60,681 nt of DNA from Motilibacter deserti (GTDB lineage: Bacteria > Actinomycetota > Actinomycetes > Motilibacterales > Motilibacteraceae), in the NCBI RefSeq assembly GCF_011250635.1, contig NZ_JAANNP010000014.1, positions 1-60,681 of the forward strand, given 5' to 3'. The notes under the pieces are model-generated. The model was not told where the DNA came from and ran no database searches. It worked only from the letters and a program-made list of their open reading frames with translations. A program made the position numbers and the translations under genes. How positions within the stretch are numbered: the first letter of the stretch is position 1; the number at the start of each line of letters is the position of its first letter. Positions 4,442 to 37,420 of the stretch are shown here, piece after piece.

Positions 4442-6175
4442 ATGACGCCCATCCTCGGCCGCCTGCGCCCGCGCGCGGCCCTGCTCGCGGCGGCCGCCGG
4501 CACCGTCCTCGCCGCGACGGCCATGACCGCCGTCCCCGCCGACGCCGTCTCGATCAAGTCCCAGCCTCTGCGACACATCCAGCTGCTCGCGGTGAACGAC
4601 TTCCACGGCAACCTCGAGCCCCCGACCGGCTCCGGCGGGACCGTGAGCCCCGGCGGCGGCCGGCCGGCCGTGCCCGCGGGCGGGGCGGCGTACCTCTCGA
4701 CGCACTTGAAGCAGCTGCGCAGCGGCAAGAAGGACAGCTTCACCATCGGCACCGGCGACATGATCGGCGCTTCGCCGCTGCTCTCGGCCGCGTTCCACGA
4801 CGAGCCCACGATCGAGGCCCTGAACCTCTTGGGGCTGGACCTCAGCGCCGTCGGCAACCACGAGTTCGACGAGGGCTACGCCGAGCTGCTGCGCATGCAG
4901 AAGGGCGGCTGCATCCGCGACAAGGACGGCGCGCAGAACCAGAACAGCTGCGCCGCGAAGGACCTCGGCGGCAAGCGCTTCCGGGGTGCGAAGTTCGACT
5001 ACCTCGCCGGGAACGTCGAGTTCACCGCCGACGGCACCCCGCTCATGGCCGCCACGCACGTCGAGAAGTTCCACAACGGGGCCAAGGTCGGCTTCATCGG
5101 CATCGTGACCTCGTCCACGCCGAGCATCGTCACCGCGTCGGGAATCAAGGGGCTGTCGTTCAAGGACGAGGCCGAGGTCGTCAACAAGTACGCCGCGCAG
5201 CTGCAGGCGAAGGGGATCGAGGCGATCGTCGTCCTCATGCACGAGGGCGGCAGCGCCGGTAGCGCCTACAACGGCTGCTCCACCCTGGGCGGTGCCGCCC
5301 GCGGCATCAACGCGAACGTGACACCCGCCGTCGACGTCATCGTCACGGGCCACAGCCACTCGGCCTTCAACTGCAAGGCGGCCGACCCGGCCGGCAACCC
5401 GCGCCTCGTGACGCAGGCCGGCAACTACGGGCGCCTCGTGACCGACATCGACCTGGTGATCGACCGTCGCACCGGCGACGTCGACCGGCAGGCTACGGCG
5501 GCGAACAACGTCATCGTCACCCGCACTGTGACTCCTGATGCGAAGATCACCGATCTGATGGACCGCTATCGGACGTACCTCGGCCCCATCGCGAACAAGA
5601 CGATCGGCTACATCGGCTCCGACATCACGCGCAGCACGAACGCCGCGGGCGAGTCGGCCCTCGGAGACCTGCTCGCCGACTCGGTGCGCGCCGACCAGTC
5701 CATCGCCGGGCGCGGGCCAATCGACATCGCGTTCATGAACCCGGGCGGCATCCGGGCCGACCTGCCCAGGGGCGACGGCGCAGTGACTTACGAAGAGGCG
5801 TTCGCTGTCCAGCCGTTCAGCAACTACAACGTCTCGAAGACCTTCACCGGCGAGCAGGTGAAGCGGATCCTCGAGGCGGGCCGGTTGCCCGTCTCGGGGC
5901 TGACCTACACCGTCACCGCCTCGGCCCCGGCCGGGAACCGGGTGTCGAACGTGCTCGTCGGCGGCCAGCCGCTCGACCTCGCGAAGAAGTACCGCGTCGG
6001 CGCCAACAACTTCCTCATCGAGGGCGGCGACGGCTACACGACCTTCGCCGAGGGGACCGACCCGCTCTACGGCGGCGTCGACATCGACGGCTTCGCCAGC
6101 TTCCTTGCGGCCAACTCGTCCGCGTCGGCTCCGTACGTGGTGCCGCCGCTCGACCGGATCACGCGACTCCCGTAA
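4442..6175 (+). CDS. Secreted bifunctional metallophosphatase / 5'-nucleotidase (copy 2)
   Basis: A 577-residue paralogue of the gene at 1196-2947, with the same predicted role in phosphate scavenging from nucleotides outside the cell. It has a signal peptide (cleavage near PADA around residue 35), the metallophosphatase motifs DFHGN, GNHEFDEG and GHSHSAFNC, and the nucleotidase domain with NPGGIRADL and QPFSNY. Long stretches are near-identical to copy 1, including the RFRGA and GLDLSAVGNHEFDEG regions. The main difference is a shorter segment before SGLTYT. ATG at 4442 has an AGGAGA site 7 nt upstream. A strong PHO box candidate precedes it. Confidence 0.93.
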   Translation: MTPILGRLRPRAALLAAAAGTVLAATAMTAVPADAVSIKSQPLRHIQLLAVNDFHGNLEPPTGSGGTVSPGGGRPAVPAGGAAYLSTHLKQLRSGKKDSFTIGTGDMIGASPLLSAAFHDEPTIEALNLLGLDLSAVGNHEFDEGYAELLRMQKGGCIRDKDGAQNQNSCAAKDLGGKRFRGAKFDYLAGNVEFTADGTPLMAATHVEKFHNGAKVGFIGIVTSSTPSIVTASGIKGLSFKDEAEVVNKYAAQLQAKGIEAIVVLMHEGGSAGSAYNGCSTLGGAARGINANVTPAVDVIVTGHSHSAFNCKAADPAGNPRLVTQAGNYGRLVTDIDLVIDRRTGDVDRQATAANNVIVTRTVTPDAKITDLMDRYRTYLGPIANKTIGYIGSDITRSTNAAGESALGDLLADSVRADQSIAGRGPIDIAFMNPGGIRADLPRGDGAVTYEEAFAVQPFSNYNVSKTFTGEQVKRILEAGRLPVSGLTYTVTASAPAGNRVSNVLVGGQPLDLAKKYRVGANNFLIEGGDGYTTFAEGTDPLYGGVDIDGFASFLAANSSASAPYVVPPLDRITRLP

Positions 6176-12843: not shown

Positions 12844-14358
12844 TTGCTCGAGGCCGAGACGTTCGTGGCCCCTCGGAGCGGCACCGGTCCCGCCGCCGAC
12901 GAGGCCTCGTCCGTCGCCTCGCGCCGGCCTGCCTGGCTGCGTACCTTCGGGCTGACCCTCGTCGTCGCCGACCTCGTCGTCGTGGTGGTCGCGATGACGG
13001 TCGCCGTCGTCGTCGGGTTCGACGGGGGCCGCAGCGCCGAGCCGCTGAGCGGGGAGGACGTCCTCTCCCAGCGCTGGCTCGCCGCGCTGCTCGCGATCGC
13101 CTGGATGTCGAGCCTGTCGCTGCACCTGTCGCGCGACCGGCGCGTGGTGGGCACCGGGCCGGACGAGTACAAGCGCGTCGTCACCGCCAGCGTCCGCCTC
13201 TTCGGGCTCGTGGCGATCATCGCCTACCTCGGCTCCGCCCCGTACGCCCGCGCGCTCGTCGCGATCGCCTTCCCGCTGGGGACGGTCGGGCTGCTCGTCG
13301 AGCGGTGGGTGGCCCGCAAGTGGCTGCACTCGCGGCGCCGCCGCGGCGGCTGGGCGCACCGCGTGCTCGTCGTGGGCAGCCCGGACAACGTGCGGCACCT
13401 CGCCGCGGAGCTGACCCGGGAGAAGTACGCCGGGTTCGAGGTCGTCGGCGTCTGCCTGCCTGGTGGTGCCGACGAGCCGGTCGCGGTGACCACCGCCGAG
13501 GCGGCCGGGCTGCCGGTCGTCGGCTCGCTCAACACCGTCGTCGACGCCGTGCGGGCGACCGGCGCCGACACGGTCGCGGTCGTCCCCTCCGTCGGGCTCA
13601 CCCCGACCGCGCTGCGCCGGCTCGGCTGGACGCTCGAGGGCACGGGGACCGACCTCGTCGTCGCTCCCGCGCTCACCGACGTCGCCGGCCCGCGCGTGCA
13701 CGTGCGCCCGGTGGCCGGGCTGCCGCTCCTGCACGTCGAGCCGCCGCAGTACGAAGGCCCGATGCGCGTAGCCAAGGGCGTGTTCGACCGGGTCGTCGGC
13801 AGCGTCCTCGTGCTCGCCCTCTCGCCGGTCCTCGTCTCGATCGCGCTGGCCGTCAAGCTCACCAGCAAGGGGCCGGTCTTCTTCCGCCAGCAGCGCGTCG
13901 GGCGCGACGGCAAGACGTTCACCGTCTTCAAGTTCCGCTCGATGGTCGTCGACGCCGAGCAGATGCTCGCGACGCTGGCGGCCAAGAACGAGCACGACGG
14001 CGTCCTGTTCAAGATGCGCGAGGACCCGCGGGTCACCAAGGTCGGCCGGTTCATCCGGCGCTACTCCCTCGACGAGCTGCCGCAGCTGTTCAACGTCCTA
14101 CGTGGCGAGATGAGCCTGGTCGGGCCCCGCCCGCCGCTGCCGTCGGAGGTGGAGCGCTACGCGTTCGACGTACGCCGCCGGCTTCTCGTCAAGCCCGGCA
14201 TGACCGGGTTGTGGCAGGTCAGCGGCCGGTCGGACCTGTCCTGGGAGGACACCGTCCGGCTCGACCTGTACTACGTGGAGAACTGGTCGATGACCGCCGA
14301 CCTGCTCATCCTGTGGAAGACGCTCGCGGCGGTCGTCAGGGGGTCCGGGGCGTACTAG
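12844..14358 (+). CDS. Exopolysaccharide polyprenyl glycosylphosphotransferase
   Basis: Starts exopolysaccharide or capsule repeat-unit assembly by transferring a sugar-1-phosphate to undecaprenyl phosphate. The 504-residue membrane protein has about four N-terminal helices (residues 35-60, 78-95, 115-135, 138-155), a Rossmann-like CoA-binding-type domain (about 165-300, RVLVVGSPDNVRHLA) and a C-terminal bacterial sugar transferase domain (FFRQQRVGRDGKTFTVFKFRSM, SLDELPQLFNVLRGEMSLVGPRPP, PGMTGLWQVSGRS). The TTG start at 12844 is chosen because GGAGGTT lies 8 nt upstream. A TAGCCT hexamer (12770-12775) could be its -10. No other polysaccharide genes are adjacent. Confidence 0.9.
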   Translation: MLEAETFVAPRSGTGPAADEASSVASRRPAWLRTFGLTLVVADLVVVVVAMTVAVVVGFDGGRSAEPLSGEDVLSQRWLAALLAIAWMSSLSLHLSRDRRVVGTGPDEYKRVVTASVRLFGLVAIIAYLGSAPYARALVAIAFPLGTVGLLVERWVARKWLHSRRRRGGWAHRVLVVGSPDNVRHLAAELTREKYAGFEVVGVCLPGGADEPVAVTTAEAAGLPVVGSLNTVVDAVRATGADTVAVVPSVGLTPTALRRLGWTLEGTGTDLVVAPALTDVAGPRVHVRPVAGLPLLHVEPPQYEGPMRVAKGVFDRVVGSVLVLALSPVLVSIALAVKLTSKGPVFFRQQRVGRDGKTFTVFKFRSMVVDAEQMLATLAAKNEHDGVLFKMREDPRVTKVGRFIRRYSLDELPQLFNVLRGEMSLVGPRPPLPSEVERYAFDVRRRLLVKPGMTGLWQVSGRSDLSWEDTVRLDLYYVENWSMTADLLILWKTLAAVVRGSGAY

Positions 14359-14445
14359 CCGCCGGCCGTCCGCCGCCGCGCCGTCCGCCCGCGCCGCCAC
14401 GCGGTCCGCCCGCGTCGGGCGCGCTCCAACGGCAGGGTCGCGAGA

Positions 14446-14587
14446 ATGCGGCATCGTGCCAGCTCGGGACGGCCACGATGCGCCACCGTGCCGATAGGTT
14501 CGCGTGAATGCGGCATCGTGCCAAGTCGGGACCGTGACAGTGCGGCATCGTGCCAACTCGAGACGGCGACGATGCGGCATCGCGACG
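14446..14587. repeat. Array of five 16-bp repeats with about 32-bp period (locus A)
   Basis: The 16-mer ATGCGGCATCGTGCCA or a close variant starts at 14446, 14478, 14508, 14540 and 14572, giving spacings of 32, 30, 32 and 32 bp with 14-16-bp spacers. The second copy is ATGCGCCACCGTGCCG. The 240-nt gap between the polysaccharide gene and dtd contains this array and no gene. A homologous array with the same 32/30/32 spacing is at 28801-28910. Confidence 0.85.
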
Positions 14588-14599
14588 AACGGCGGCGCG

Positions 14600-15037
14600 T
14601 CAGCCGGGCGGCGGCAACTCCAGGAGCACGGTGACCGGGCCGTCGTTGACCAGCGCGACCTGCATGTCGGCGCCGAAGACCCCCGTCTCCACGTGCGCAC
14701 CGCGGGCGCGCAGCTCCTCCACGTACGCCTCCACCAGCGGCTCGGCCACCGGGCCGGGGGCGGCCGGCGACCAGCTCGGCCGGCGCCCCTTGCGGGTGTC
14801 GGCGTACAACGTGAACTGGCTGATCACGAGCAGCGGCGCGGCGAGGTCGGCGGCGCTGCGCTCCTCGCGCAGGATGCGCAGCTCGTACGTCTTGGCCGCC
14901 AGGGCGCGCGCGGTCGCCTCGTCGTCGCCGACCGCGACCCCGAGCAGGACGACGAGCCCCGGGGCGGGCAGTTGGCCGACGACGTCCCCGTCGACGGTGA
15001 CGCTGCCGGACAGGGCACGCTGGAGGAGGGCTCGCAC
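14600..15037 (-). CDS. dtd: D-aminoacyl-tRNA deacylase
   Basis: Hydrolyses D-amino acids from mischarged tRNA. The 145-residue protein shows the Dtd signatures [15 protein letters not shown] at the N-terminus, the [18 protein letters not shown] active-site segment and the C-terminal [13 protein letters not shown], which corresponds to the Gly-cisPro-type conserved NDGPVT motif. GTG at 15037 matches the usual N-terminus (M/V-R-A); an in-frame GTG two codons earlier is possible. The gene is divergent from rsiG. Confidence 0.92.
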
Positions 15038-15128
15038 GGGCACATCCTTGCCCACGGTCCGTCGCCGCGAGGTGGCACGATGTGCAGTGACACGCGCAGG
15101 TAGTCGAGCACTACAAACGGGAGTGGCC

Positions 15129-27285: not shown

Positions 27286-27338
27286 GGCAGCGAGGGTGGC
27301 ATGCGTGACCGCGCGATCGATCGGGGAGGATGGGGGTC

Positions 27339-28661
27339 GTGCCGGTGCGAAGCGAGATCGCTCGTCCCCTGCGCGCCGGCCGTCGGGGACGTCGGCTGCG
27401 CCGGGTGGCGATGCTCAGCATCCACACCTCGCCGCTGGACCAGCCCGGCACCGGTGACGCAGGCGGCCTCAACGTCTACGTCGTCGAGCTGTCGCGCCGG
27501 CTGGCTCGGCTCGGCACCGAGGTGGAGATCTTCACCCGCGCGACGCGCAGCGGCCTCCCGCCGGTGACCGAGCTCGACGACGGCGTGCTCGTGCGCCACA
27601 TCGCGGCCGGGCCGCTCGAGGGGCTCTCCAAGGAGGACCTCCCCGGCCAGCTCTGCGCCGTCGCGGCCGGCGTGCTGCGGGCCGAGGCCCAGCACGAGCC
27701 CGGGTGGTACGACCTGGTCCACTCCCACTACTGGCTCTCCGGCCAGGTCGGCTGGCTCGCCGCCGAGCGCTGGGGCGTCCCGCTCGTGCACTCGATGCAC
27801 ACGATGGCTCGCGTCAAGAACCTCACGCTGGCCGACGGCGACCGCCCCGAGCCACTCACCCGCGAGATCGGCGAGCAGCAGGTCGTCGAGGCCGCGGACC
27901 GGCTGCTGGCGAACACCGACGACGAGGCCCGCCAGCTCGTCGACCTCTACGCCGCCGACCCCGCCGCCGTCTCCGTCGTCGCCCCCGGCGTCGACCTCGA
28001 CGTGTTCGCCCCGATGGACCGGCGGGCCGCCCGACGCGCGGTCGGGCTGCGCGGCGACGCCCTCGTGCTCCTGTTCGTCGGCCGCGTCCAGCCGCTCAAG
28101 GCCCCCGACGTGCTCGTCCGGGCCGCCGCCCGCATGGTCGCGCAGGACCCCGCGCTCCGCTCGCGGCTGCAGGTGGTCGTCGTCGGCGGCCCCAGCGGCA
28201 CCGGGCTCGAGCGGCCCGAGGCGCTCGCCGCGCTGGCCCGCTCGCTCGGCATCGGCGACCTCGTCCGCTTCCAGCCACCGGTCGGCCGCGAGGAGCTGGC
28301 CCGGTGGTACGCCGCGGCCGACCTCACCGTCGTCCCCTCGCACAGCGAGTCCTTCGGGCTCGTCGCCGTCGAGTCCCAGGCCTGCGGCACTCCGGTCGTC
28401 GCGGCCGCCGTCGGCGGGCTGACCACGGCCGTCGCGGACGGCGTCTCCGGCGTGCTGGTCGAGGGCCACGACCCCGAGCGCTGGGCGCGGGAGCTGCGCG
28501 AGCTCGCCGCGGCGCCGGGGCGGCTCGCCGCGTACGCCGTCGCCGCGCGGGCGCACGCCCTGCGCTTCGGGTGGAACGCCACCGCCGGCGCCGTCGCGGA
28601 CGTCTACGCCGAGGCCGTCGAGGCCGCGCGGACGCCGCAGCGGCTCGCCGCCGGTAGCTGA
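27339..28661 (+). CDS. mshA: D-inositol-3-phosphate glycosyltransferase MshA
   Basis: First step of mycothiol synthesis: transfers GlcNAc from UDP-GlcNAc to 1-L-myo-inositol-1-phosphate. The 440-residue GT4 enzyme shows the [10 protein letters not shown] acceptor loop (N-terminal part), [29 protein letters not shown] and the donor-site EX7E region [24 protein letters not shown] at 27339 is preferred because GAGGAT (27326-27331) lies 7 nt upstream, a leaderless layout; an ATG at 27330 would add three residues. mshD of the same pathway opens this window. Confidence 0.93.
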
Positions 28662-28677
28662 CGCGCTGGCGCTGGCG

Positions 28678-28987
28678 GAGGTCGGCGTACGCGCCGGAGT
28701 GCGGGCCTGGGTGGCGCGGGGGGCTGGTCTGCGCGGCGCTGAGGCAGCGCTGCCGTGGCGGCGTGCCCGTCATCGAGGCGCCCGCTCGCGGGTTGTCGCA
28801 ATGCCGCATTCTCGCCACGTCCGGTCGCCACGATGCGCCATTGCAACGGACCTATCGCATGAATGCGGCATCGTGCCAGGCGACGTACGCATGAATGCGG
28901 CATTGCGCCAGAACGCGGGCCGGCGCGCGGGGGCGGGGGACCGCGGGCGCGGCGGGGCGCGGCTGGAGGTCGGCGTACGCGCCGGAG
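28678..28987. repeat. 23-bp direct repeats flanking the repeat array upstream of gpm
   Basis: A perfect 23-bp repeat beginning GGAGGTCGGCGTACGCGCCG occurs at 28678-28700, just after mshA, and at 28965-28987, in the upstream promoter region of gpm, 287 bp apart. The 350-nt gap between mshA and gpm holds these repeats, the 16-bp array and no gene. Confidence 0.85.
28801..28910. repeat. Array of four 16-bp repeats with about 32-bp period (locus B)
   Basis: Copies start at 28801 (ATGCCGCATTCTCGCC), 28833 (ATGCGCCATTGCAACG), 28863 (ATGCGGCATCGTGCCA) and 28895 (ATGCGGCATTGCGCCA), with spacings of 32, 30 and 32 bp, the same order and register as locus A at 14446. The first copy is the most diverged. 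Confidence 0.85.
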
Positions 28988-29011: not shown

Positions 29012-29785
29012 ATGGCGAACGAGGACGCGAACGAGGGTGCGGCGTACACGCTGATCCTGCTCCGGCACGGTGAGAGCGAGTGGAACGCGAAGAACCTCTT
29101 CACCGGCTGGGTCGACGTCGACCTGTCGGAGAAGGGCCGCGCGGAGGCCGAGCGCGGTGGCCAGATGCTGGCCGAGTCGGGACTGCTGCCCGACGTCCTG
29201 CACACCAGCGTCCTGCGCCGGGCGATCCGGACCGCGGAGATCGCGCTGCACCGCGCGGACCTGCACTGGCTGCCCGTGAAGCGGTCGTGGCGGCTCAACG
29301 AGCGGCACTACGGCGCGCTGCAGGGCAAGGACAAGGCGCAGATCCGGGGCGAGTTCGGTGACGAGCAGTTCATGCTGTGGCGCCGTTCCTACGACGTGCC
29401 GCCGCCGCCGATCGCCGACGAGGACGAGTTCTCCCAGTTCGGCGACCTGCGCTATGCCGACCTCCCGCCGGAGCTGCTGCCGCGCACCGAGTGCCTCAAG
29501 GACGTCGTCGGGCGGATGCTGCCCTACTGGTACGACGCGATCGTCCCCGACCTGCGCTCGAACAAGACCGTCATGGTCACGGCGCACGGCAACTCGCTGC
29601 GCGCGCTCGTCAAGCACCTGGACAAGATCGACGACGAGACGATCGCCGGGCTCAACATCCCGACCGGCATCCCGCTGGTCTACCGGCTCGATGAGGACCT
29701 GCTGCCGGTGACGCCGGGTGGGGAGTACCTCGACCCGGAGGCCGCGAAGTCGGCCATCGAGGCGGTCAAGAACCAGGGCCGTTAG
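29012..29785 (+). CDS. gpmA: 2,3-bisphosphoglycerate-dependent phosphoglycerate mutase
   Basis: Interconverts 3- and 2-phosphoglycerate in glycolysis and gluconeogenesis. The 257-residue protein has the catalytic [12 protein letters not shown] (phosphorylated His near residue 20), the [15 protein letters not shown] segment and the second catalytic His in [19 protein letters not shown] at 29012 lies 7 nt after TAGGCT (28999-29004), so the transcript is probably leaderless. The family N-terminus normally starts close to the RHG motif; here an extra acidic stretch of about ten residues precedes it. A compound hairpin follows the gene. Confidence 0.94.
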
Positions 29786-33324: not shown

Positions 33325-34001
33325 CCCGCGTCCTTGTCGTCGAAGACGAGGAGTCCTTCAGCGAAGCCCTGTCGTACATGCTGCGCCGCGAGGGCTTCGA
33401 GGTGGAGGTGGCCACCACCGGGCCGGAGGCGCTGGACACGTTCGACCGCAACGGCGCCGACCTGGTCCTGCTCGACCTCATGCTGCCGGGCATCCCGGGG
33501 ACCGAGGTCTGCCGGCAGCTGCGCCAGCGCAGCGGCGTACCCGTGATCATGCTGACCGCCAAGGACAGCGAGGTCGACAAGGTCGTGGGCCTGGAGCTGG
33601 GCGCCGACGACTACGTCACCAAGCCGTTCTCCTCCCGCGAGCTCGTCGCCCGGATCCGCGCGGTGCTCCGCCGTGGCGGGGAGCCGGAGGACCTGCTGCC
33701 CGCGGCCCTGGAGGCCGGCCCGGTGCGCATGGACGTCGAGCGCCACGTGGTGACCGTCGACGGCGCCGGTGTGCAGCTGCCGCTCAAGGAGTTCGAGCTG
33801 CTGGAGCTGCTGCTGCGCAACCCCGGCCGCGTGCTCACCCGCATGCAGCTCATCGACCGGGTGTGGGGGTCGGACTACGTCGGCGACACGAAGACGCTCG
33901 ACGTGCACGTGAAGCGGCTGCGCTCGAAGATCGAGCCGGACCCCGCCGCGCCGCGCCACCTCGTCACCGTGCGGGGGCTGGGCTACAAGTTCGAGCCGTG
34001 A
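33321..34001 (+). CDS. regX3: Phosphate response regulator RegX3 (PhoP)
   Basis: OmpR/PhoB-type response regulator that activates phosphate-starvation genes by binding PHO boxes. The 226-residue protein has a receiver domain with the acidic pair EDEES, the phosphoacceptor Asp in LVLLDLMLPG (near residue 52) and Lys in VTKPFSSRE (near 102). The winged-helix domain follows (LKEFELLELLLRNPGRVLTRMQL, then TLDVHVKRLRSKIE). It is coupled to senX3. The last codons and stop are part of a 41-bp tandem repeat. Likely targets in this window are the two nucleotidase genes. Confidence 0.94.
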   Translation: MTRVLVVEDEESFSEALSYMLRREGFEVEVATTGPEALDTFDRNGADLVLLDLMLPGIPGTEVCRQLRQRSGVPVIMLTAKDSEVDKVVGLELGADDYVTKPFSSRELVARIRAVLRRGGEPEDLLPAALEAGPVRMDVERHVVTVDGAGVQLPLKEFELLELLLRNPGRVLTRMQLIDRVWGSDYVGDTKTLDVHVKRLRSKIEPDPAAPRHLVTVRGLGYKFEP

Positions 34002-34085
34002 CCGCGTCGTCAGCCGGGCCGGGCTACGAGCTCGAGCCGTGACCTCGTCGTCAGCCGGGCCGGGCTACGAGCTCGAGCCGTGACT
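33980..34085 (+). repeat. 41-bp tandem repeat covering the regX3 stop codon
   Basis: Units start at 33980, 34021 and 34062 (GGGCTACAAG in the gene, GGGCTACGAG in the copies), each containing the codons for the C-terminal Tyr-(Lys/Glu)-(Phe/Leu)-Glu-Pro and a TGA. The third unit is partial. The copies are near-identical to each other and differ from the gene at two codons. Confidence 0.9.
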
Positions 34086-34182
34086 TCGATGTCGGCGGCC
34101 GGGCGCTCCTGACCCGAGCGCCCGCGCCGGGACGGCCTGCCGCTCGCGCCGCCCGGGGCGAGCGGTGCGACCGCAGACGGAA

Positions 34183-36060: not shown

Positions 36061-36397
36061 CTGAGCCAGTCTGCCACCGCGGAGCCCGGCGCGCCGCTCC
36101 GGAACCGGGCGCGGGGAGGAGCTCGGAGGGCCGCCTGGCTCCCTGCCTCTCGAGCGGCGCGGGTGGGGAGCGGTCCGAGGGCGTTCGGCTCGTCGCCATC
36201 GTCGTGGGTGGGAGCGCCGAGGGCGCCTAGAGCGCTGCCTTCGATGCGGGCGGGTGGAGCCGTTGCGGGACCCGCGCTCTCCGCGTTGATGCTGGGGGGT
36301 GGAGTCGTTCCGGGGACCCGCGCTCGCCGTGCTCGGTGCTGGCCAGTGGGGCCGCTCTCGCGGAATCGGGCTCGCCGCGTCGATGCTGGCGCTTGAG

Positions 36398-36445
36398 CAG
36401 GTCCGGGCGCAGGTCCGGGCGCAGGTCCGGGCGCAGGTCCGGGCT
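36398..36445. repeat. Four 12-bp tandem repeats
   Basis: CAGGTCCGGGCG is repeated at 36398, 36410, 36422 and 36434, the last with a single final change. The units are head-to-tail without spacers. Confidence 0.9.
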
Positions 36446-36700
36446 CAGCCAGGGCGGTCGGCTGAGGTCCCAGGGGCGCGGGGCCCGGCGGCGGGACGGC
36501 CCTCCTGCCCCCTCCGTGCCAGGCTGACCGGCCGGGTGAGCACAGGCCTTCCGGCCCCTGTTGCCAGGGTCACATCCCCGTCACACGACGTGGCCGTTTC
36601 GCGCCGTCGAGGGGCTCCGCCCGGGCGCTCACAGCGTCCTCACAGCACGATTGTCATGGCTTTGTCAAGCCCCTGACCTGCGACGATGCGCAAACTTGGC

Positions 36701-37291: not shown

Positions 37292-37325
37292 CGTTGTCTG
37301 GGGCAGTGGGGTCGTCGGCACGGTG

Positions 37326-37420
37326 CGTCGTCGCGCCGAACTGGCGATGCGTGCATCGTCGCGCCGCACCGGCGGTGCGTGTGTCGTCGCGCCGCACTGG
37401 CGGTGCGTGCATCCTCGCGT
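37326..37420. repeat. 28-bp tandem repeats between carD and ispD
   Basis: Three 28-bp units (37326-37353, 37354-37381, 37382-37409) and a partial fourth share the core GTCGCGCCGCACTGGCGGTG with a few substitutions. They lie just after the carD terminator, in non-coding DNA. Confidence 0.88.

Follow-up and report, generated by a model that had tools for sequence, protein, structure and literature searches.

A dispersed family of intergenic palindrome arrays with fixed 30- and 32-bp steps in Motilibacter deserti

Locus B lies between two genes of the same direction in the window analysed here, the whole 60,681-nt stretch of contig NZ_JAANNP010000014.1 of Motilibacter deserti, 132 bp past the stop codon of a glycosyltransferase gene (27405..28661, + strand, identified by translation, with a longer ORF starting at 27330) and 101 bp ahead of a phosphoglycerate mutase gene (29012..29785, + strand, identified by DNA similarity to annotated phosphoglyceromutase genes). 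The glycosyltransferase is presumably similar to mycothiol MshA, and a Glycos_transf_1 match, not assigned to an individual member, is present among the 34 proteins that flank arrays in this genome. The initial annotation had described four repeat copies spaced 32/30/32, with a variant copy second and the 30-bp gap after it, and the sequence bears this out: ATGNNNCAT cores start at 28801, 28833, 28863 and 28895. The corresponding units, none of which has a strand, are unit 1 (28793..28817, core ATGCCGCAT at 28801-28809, lying at +47 relative to the centre box), unit 2 (28825..28849, variant core ATGCGCCAT at 28833-28841), unit 3 (28855..28879, core ATGCGGCAT at 28863-28871) and unit 4 (28887..28911, core ATGCGGCAT at 28895-28903), their 25-bp extent being inferred from copies in G003, a genome of another genus of the same family. 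The sole 30-bp step is marked by the 5-bp centre of a box on the minus strand (28850..28854; ACCTA on the plus strand, TAGGT on the minus strand). An outer inverted repeat with 34-nt arms, 82% complementary, extends the dyad past units 1 and 4, and the whole unstranded element (28778..28926) has an RNA fold z of -4.0. The array region is enclosed by a 23-bp perfect direct repeat (28677..28699 and 28965..28987, both on the + strand, 288 bp apart), which is the core of a 53-nt repeat (77%).

Locus A, on the + strand of the same window, comprises five units (14438..14588) around a centre TAGGT at 14495-14499 and is located between convergent genes, a bacterial sugar transferase gene on the left (12844-14358, + strand) and a gene for a D-Tyr-tRNA deacylase, judged by its sequence, on the right (14600-15055, - strand). 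Its cores, ATGCGGCAT at 14446, ATGCGCCAC at 14478, ATGCGGCAT at 14508, GTGCGGCAT at 14540 and ATGCGGCAT at 14572, repeat the 32/30/32 spacing with a further step of 32, giving five copies compared with four in locus B. The arrays are quasi-palindromic. Their centre box appears as TAGGT in A and as ACCTA in B, so that by the box the two loci are on opposite strands and unit 2 of A corresponds to unit 3 of B. Identity between A and B is 66/105 on the same strand and 60/105 on the opposite strand, or 28/61 and 26/61 outside the cores. The proposal that both loci keep the same order and register therefore holds for the spacing, which is 32/30/32 in both, whereas the order is ambiguous, given that the orientation of the box and the slightly higher same-strand identity disagree. 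With 66/105 positions identical, a recent duplication of one locus from the other is ruled out. Exact ATGNNNCAT occurs seven times in the window, all within A or B, compared with once in each of two controls, and AATGCNGCATT with at most one mismatch occurs five times against 0.17 expected; ATGCGCCA alone is not enriched there (2 vs 1.68 expected). Tandem Repeats Finder at a score of 60 reported locus A and not locus B.

The window also contains other repeats. A 28-bp tandem array of 3.5 copies at 37323-37419, GTGCATCGTCGCGCCGCACTGGCGGTGC, contains ATGCGTGCAT and is possibly another type of palindromic array; a 41-bp tandem repeat at 33975-34097 duplicates the last part of a response-regulator-like gene, stop codon included; tandem repeats with units of 47 bp and 12 bp are found at 36243-36391 (3.2 copies) and 36397-36448 (4.3 copies), respectively; and the stretch 1300-2899 has a paralogue about 3.2 kb away (4558-6115), 70-81% identical to it in blocks, the pair resembling a tandem gene duplication.

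The array core ATGNNNCAT, mostly AATGNNNCATT, is paired at distances of 21-49 bp 38 times genome-wide, compared with once for the reversed control. The search favoured no spacing within this range, and 20 of the pairs are 32 bp apart, 15 are 30, two are 33 and one is 31. The suggestion that spacing itself is under selection is supported, as 35 of 38 steps are 30 or 32 bp and as six orthologous steps are kept while the spacers drift; in three orthologous arrays of the own genome and the sister species G001, compared as equal-length slices without gaps, all six compared steps are conserved with 102/150 spacer and 89/96 core positions identical. Free variation of spacing among the other copies was looked for and was not found, the exceptions being steps of 31 and 33 bp and a single 29-bp central step in G001 (C3:13).

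A centre box (TAGGT or TAGAG, on either strand) is present in 15/15 of the 30-bp steps and in 0/20 of the 32-bp steps. Given this confinement of the box, the array can be described as a symmetric element whose dyad units sit 15 and 47 bp to either side of an asymmetric box (-47, -15, +15, +47). Alignment of 26 centres from the own genome and G001 places the box CGATAGGTTCG at the array centre, and conservation fades past about +-60 bp with no shared termini. The innermost 61 bp align without gaps over 24 copies (24 of the 26 centres, L001 and L009b having been dropped). Among the 35 sides on which an outer unit could be detected, the outer step is exactly 32 bp in 31, while shuffled sequence yields any such unit in 2.8%; the single '30' in this tally is L138, whose centre was set one base off. 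The first unit of a G003 copy (C11:180306) is TTGGCACGATGGCCCATCGTGCCAA, two 11-bp arms with 3 bp between them; the second unit on C16 comes close to it. If TTGGCACGATGGCCCATCGTGCCAA represents the full unit, 30 equals 25 + 5 and 32 equals 25 + 7.

The arrays are not placed at random with respect to genes. Among 38 arrays in the own genome, G001 and G003, 24 lie between convergent genes, eight between genes of the same direction and three between divergent genes, with two at contig ends and one inside a gene call, whereas the other gaps longer than 40 nt at the same loci are 20 convergent, 75 same-direction and 38 divergent. This convergent enrichment (24/35 classified arrays vs 20/133 other gaps, Fisher p 2e-9) omits the two contig-end arrays and the one inside a gene call, includes six or seven G001 arrays that are orthologs of own ones and hence not independent, and is based on gene calls by a codon-usage caller built for this analysis in place of an annotation. 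In Prauserella muralis, 17 of 26 classified arrays are convergent, nine same-direction and none divergent, with 5/31 unclassified (Fisher p 2e-8), a count that covers 30 of the 38 fetched loci; over all 38 loci the numbers are 24, 10 and 0, with five unclassified. A promoter reading of the TAGGTT box was dropped in view of this 3' and convergent position. No recurrent family was found among the flanking proteins (57 from P. muralis, 34 own), the commonest being acyl-CoA dehydrogenase with 2/57. One P. muralis gene (L073, 6822-7535), which seems to encode an AbiEi-type/DUF559 protein, is located between two arrays 1.1 kb apart.

A model built from these arrays (R1), whose finds in the own genome and G001 are thus partly by construction, detects 21 full centres in the own genome, 16 in G001 and three in G003, with E up to 1.2e-9, 9e-6 and 6e-8 respectively, together with a weak fourth in G003. 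Two further weak matches in the own genome (E 1e-4 and 0.06; C232:478860-478949) are separated by some 1.4 kb from the C232_480 array. R1 has no match in G002, G004, G017 or Rhodococcus, and by this model the array is not detected in two of four family relatives; P. muralis, G039 and G044 give weak matches alone, with E of 0.01 or worse (0.014 at best in P. muralis). Exact AATGNNNCATT pairs occur in 6 of 393 genomes of the class (12 in the own genome, 10 in G017, 24 in G039, two in G265 and one each in G325 and G328, the last two at spacings of 23 and 43), against a reversed control with scattered matches of up to five per genome. Among the matches listed, the pairs of G017 and G265 are spaced at 30 and those of G039 at 30 or 31. 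The array is thus dispensable, going undetected in two of four family relatives and, at the stringency of the exact core, being paired in so few genomes of the class.

Look-alikes with AATGNNNCATT cores 30 bp apart are found in Prauserella, Amycolatopsis, Rhodococcus and one further family, and a scan of named genomes gave, among the matches listed, P. muralis, several Amycolatopsis, Qaidamihabitans and Rhodococcus tukisamuensis. The word AATGYVRCATT occurs 364 times in P. muralis, 210, 164, 98 and 72 times in four Amycolatopsis, 13 times in Qaidamihabitans and 30 times in R. tukisamuensis, whereas reversed controls in these seven genomes gave 0 to 5 (0 in P. muralis). All 61 P. muralis steps are 30 bp; the first step of each array was picked by a 30-32 search and the 30 second steps were unselected. 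R. tukisamuensis has ten close pairs, all at 30 bp and each an exact reverse-complement pair. Given that R1 finds nothing in G017 and Rhodococcus and matches P. muralis weakly, the look-alikes in other families may be either homologous or convergent. Further repeats were also seen: G039 arrays (L145-L149) with steps of 30-31 and 52 bp, the 52-bp step seemingly holding a half-decayed unit; a repetition of its own block at L148; and in G165 (C1:2210149-2211156) an unrelated 34-bp tandem repeat containing ATGCGGCAT. No prior description of the array family was found in searches of open-access literature, and the available part of the Kineococcus genome paper (PMC2587704) contains nothing relevant to these arrays.

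Six of 18 own array loci are paired in place with G001 arrays (A, C155/C124, C232_480, C232_930, C253 and C132), C208 is a seventh and doubtful match, and the remaining own loci have no counterpart among the 16 array loci of G001; among loci without a partner, the matching G001 place was inspected at B. None of the own loci has a G003 array at the corresponding position. The shared arrays have been kept at about 84-88% flank identity. A second G001 array lies 1.1 kb from the match of C232_480, and a further shared locus is possible there. One G001 array matches the ends of both C155 and C124, from which it follows that arrays break the own assembly; three contigs, at the ends of L001, L002 and L017, break off inside or beside an array or unit.

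A search for empty sites in relatives had been proposed as a check, and at locus B three relatives lack the array: in G001 the matched flanks are 66 bp apart compared with 277 and enclose no array, in G003 hardly any space is left between the genes, and in G004 a short gap contains no cores. In G002 the two flank genes are not neighbours in the order seen here, and that genome therefore carries no weight on presence or absence. Locus B was accordingly either gained in the own lineage or lost in G001. The G001 gap holds one diverged copy of the 23-bp direct repeat; the upstream gap of B, however, fails to align, so that no clean insertion could be traced. The idea of a mobile or duplicated element stands in part: the arrays form a dispersed family with gain or loss, but a REP-type transposase, shared termini and, at B, a clean target duplication were looked for and not found, and A and B are no recent duplicates.

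Two levels of symmetry coexist in the arrays, inside each unit and across the centre. In the own family, dyad pairing within units reaches 82.6% compared with 76.9% after shuffling, and cells in which both positions changed number 28 vs 16.0 (0/500 shuffles as high, slid versions lower), with the caveat that relatedness among the rows can lift values above those of shuffles even where there is no structure. Across the centre, pairing is 70.8% vs 67.6% (4/500 shuffles) and both-changed cells number 50 vs 37.7 (5/500 shuffles); within-unit covariation is therefore the stronger of the two in this family. A first hairpin count, on 20 of 21 hairpins (L001 was one base short), gave 354/500 pairs vs 336.4 (p 0.027). 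Pairing is uneven, from 25/25 pairs at L005, where the RNA fold z is -7.1, to just 8 to 15 Watson-Crick pairs of 25 in 10/21 copies. P. muralis reverses the pattern of the own family: the core's middle and three inner-arm columns covary across the centre (p below 1/2000 each; the cross-centre total is not raised, 980 vs 986.6), whereas inside the units the flanks show no pairing (offset 2 in 31/91 vs 38.0 expected). In the f14 genomes (G017 and G039), units are local palindromes, with offsets 2 and 3 paired in 27/27 and 26/27, and adjacent units of G017 have no cross-centre covariation (185 vs 196.8 expected). On the sense strand of same-direction arrays, G-U wobbles number 18 and A-C mismatches 40, so that the excess goes the opposite way (p 0.005), in a count where C3:13 with its 29-bp step was mis-registered and neighbouring P. 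muralis pairs share units.

Our tentatively favoured reading is that locus B may well be one copy of a dispersed REP/BIME-like intergenic array that is read as double-stranded DNA by a putative oligomeric dyad-binding protein. The four-dyad geometry is held over sequence drift, the arrays lie at 3' ends and between convergent genes, and a like core is present elsewhere in Actinomycetia. Recognition by a protein as double-stranded DNA is suggested by the exact spacing over drift, the dyad of the units, the like core in several families and the lack of a G-U preference. An oligomeric protein would occupy the four dyads, about three helical turns apart, as four dimers, as an octamer-like assembly of the Lrp type or as an enzyme such as gyrase at BIMEs; it might wrap or mark the DNA where convergent transcription meets, and the DNA so bound could limit read-through or collect supercoiling. 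The family would spread rarely and then be inherited in place. By their position, arrays could act as a boundary, roadblock or supercoil sink. Counted against this protein-based reading are that neither 30 nor 32 bp is a whole number of 10.5-bp turns, that the long hairpin across the centre covaries too, that the flanks of P. muralis units show no pairing inside the unit, that the array is dispensable, and that R1 matches the look-alikes of P. muralis weakly and those of G017 and Rhodococcus not at all.

The main rival, which we regard as possible if doubtful, is an RNA hairpin element, either a bidirectional intrinsic terminator or a 3'-end stabiliser, whose transcripts would fold into short triloop hairpins or a long stem. 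It would account for the location at 3' ends and between convergent genes, for the covariation of the long hairpin with its complete pairing at L005, and for the strong folds of B and L005, though palindromic repeats fold well by nature. Terminators, however, can do without a conserved core and without exact 30/32 spacing, the profile of 26 centres has no conserved T-run, wobbles on the sense strand do not exceed A-C mismatches, nearly half of the copies retain at most 15 of the 25 pairs, and adjacent G017 units do not covary over long range. No Rfam family reached the gathering threshold in the five sources scanned, which also speaks against a known RNA family, the sub-threshold match to a miRNA (E 0.42) being taken as chance.

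A non-autonomous mobile element of REPIN or MITE type, on whose palindrome a transposase would act with the enzyme requiring the spacing and the host deriving no function, appears quite improbable to us. Dispersed copies, the absence of B at orthologous sites in three relatives, the small share of own loci (6-7/18) with a G001 counterpart and the direct repeats around B would agree with mobility, but conservation falls off without shared termini and arrays have stayed in place while their flanks diverged. A search confined to Y1_Tnp was positive in 0/15 genomes, of which ten carry arrays or look-alikes, compared with 5/14 controls. Neither B nor one P. muralis element had a match in phage or plasmid collections, and an origin as a plasmid or phage element was rejected. 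A CRISPR-like array is likewise ruled out, the units being short palindromes at dispersed loci. Hardly credible is a set of uptake-signal-like words pairing up as terminators at 3' ends; Haemophilus uptake words do form dyad pairs in terminators (PMC5217627) and the arrays share the 3' position, yet centres number only about 20 in a genome, and the array words are themselves palindromes at fixed 30/32 spacing instead of single oriented words.

A bolder form of the protein-based reading, which we consider rather unlikely, is that a dedicated putative oligomeric protein in several Actinomycetia families binds AATGNNNCATT dyads at steps of 30-32 bp and forms with the DNA a nucleoprotein barrier that separates convergent genes. 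If true, it would constitute a protein-built transcription boundary in bacteria, an insulator or roadblock terminator, either ancient or transferred from family to family, and lost in the majority of them. High-GC actinobacteria often lack classical T-run terminators, the separation of their convergent genes is poorly known, and a RAYT-free, rigid REP-like family offers a testable handle on it.

Among known systems, REP, BIME and REPIN elements come closest, consisting of short palindromic units, often paired or regularly clustered, that are intergenic, near 3' ends and mostly between convergent or same-direction genes (PMC3733652; PMC2817692). The arrays described here likewise consist of short palindromes scattered between genes, on their 3' side, in regularly spaced clusters, but REP copy numbers usually exceed 100 (PMC2817692), compared with about 21 centres, and for the majority of REP dimers the spacer is anywhere between 20 and 100 bp long (PMC3733652), whereas array steps are 30 or 32. 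No conserved GTAG or CGTC tag is seen at a unit end in the profile or the 24-row alignment; the centre box contains ATAG in most rows and GTAG in 2/24 (L016 and L140), but it is sited between two units. The transposase RAYT (Y1_Tnp, PF01797) is absent from the 15 genomes searched, and CGTC REPs likewise have no dedicated transposase (PMC3733652). The asymmetric centre box and the symmetric four-unit layout also set the arrays apart from GTAG and CGTC REPs, and six actinobacterial names sought in the main text of PMC3733652 do not occur there. Being REP/BIME-like in structure and position and having neither tag nor RAYT, the arrays are not filed as REP, and membership is ruled out on these two grounds. 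Their 3' and convergent position fits BIMEs, at which gyrase acts, binding and cutting BIME-2. BIMEs bind several proteins (PMC2817692).

MITEs would be expected to carry terminal inverted repeats and a target-site duplication; the profile contains no shared termini, and at B the 23-bp direct repeat is found outside the array but the flank does not align as a clean insertion; of the features of intrinsic terminators, hairpins are predicted by folding and a conserved T-run is missing from the profile. Haemophilus uptake signal dyads resemble the arrays in that a recurring word forms dyad pairs at 3' ends, and differ in their roughly 1300 copies (PMC5217627) from the palindromic, rigidly spaced and far less numerous word described here. 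Proteins of the Lrp/AsnC type recognise dyad sites two or three helical turns apart, three dimers wrapping about 100 bp (PMC2995911). Their arrays act at gene control regions, whereas the present sites lie at many 3' ends; four dyads about three turns apart would nevertheless fit an oligomer such as those formed by Lrp-type proteins.
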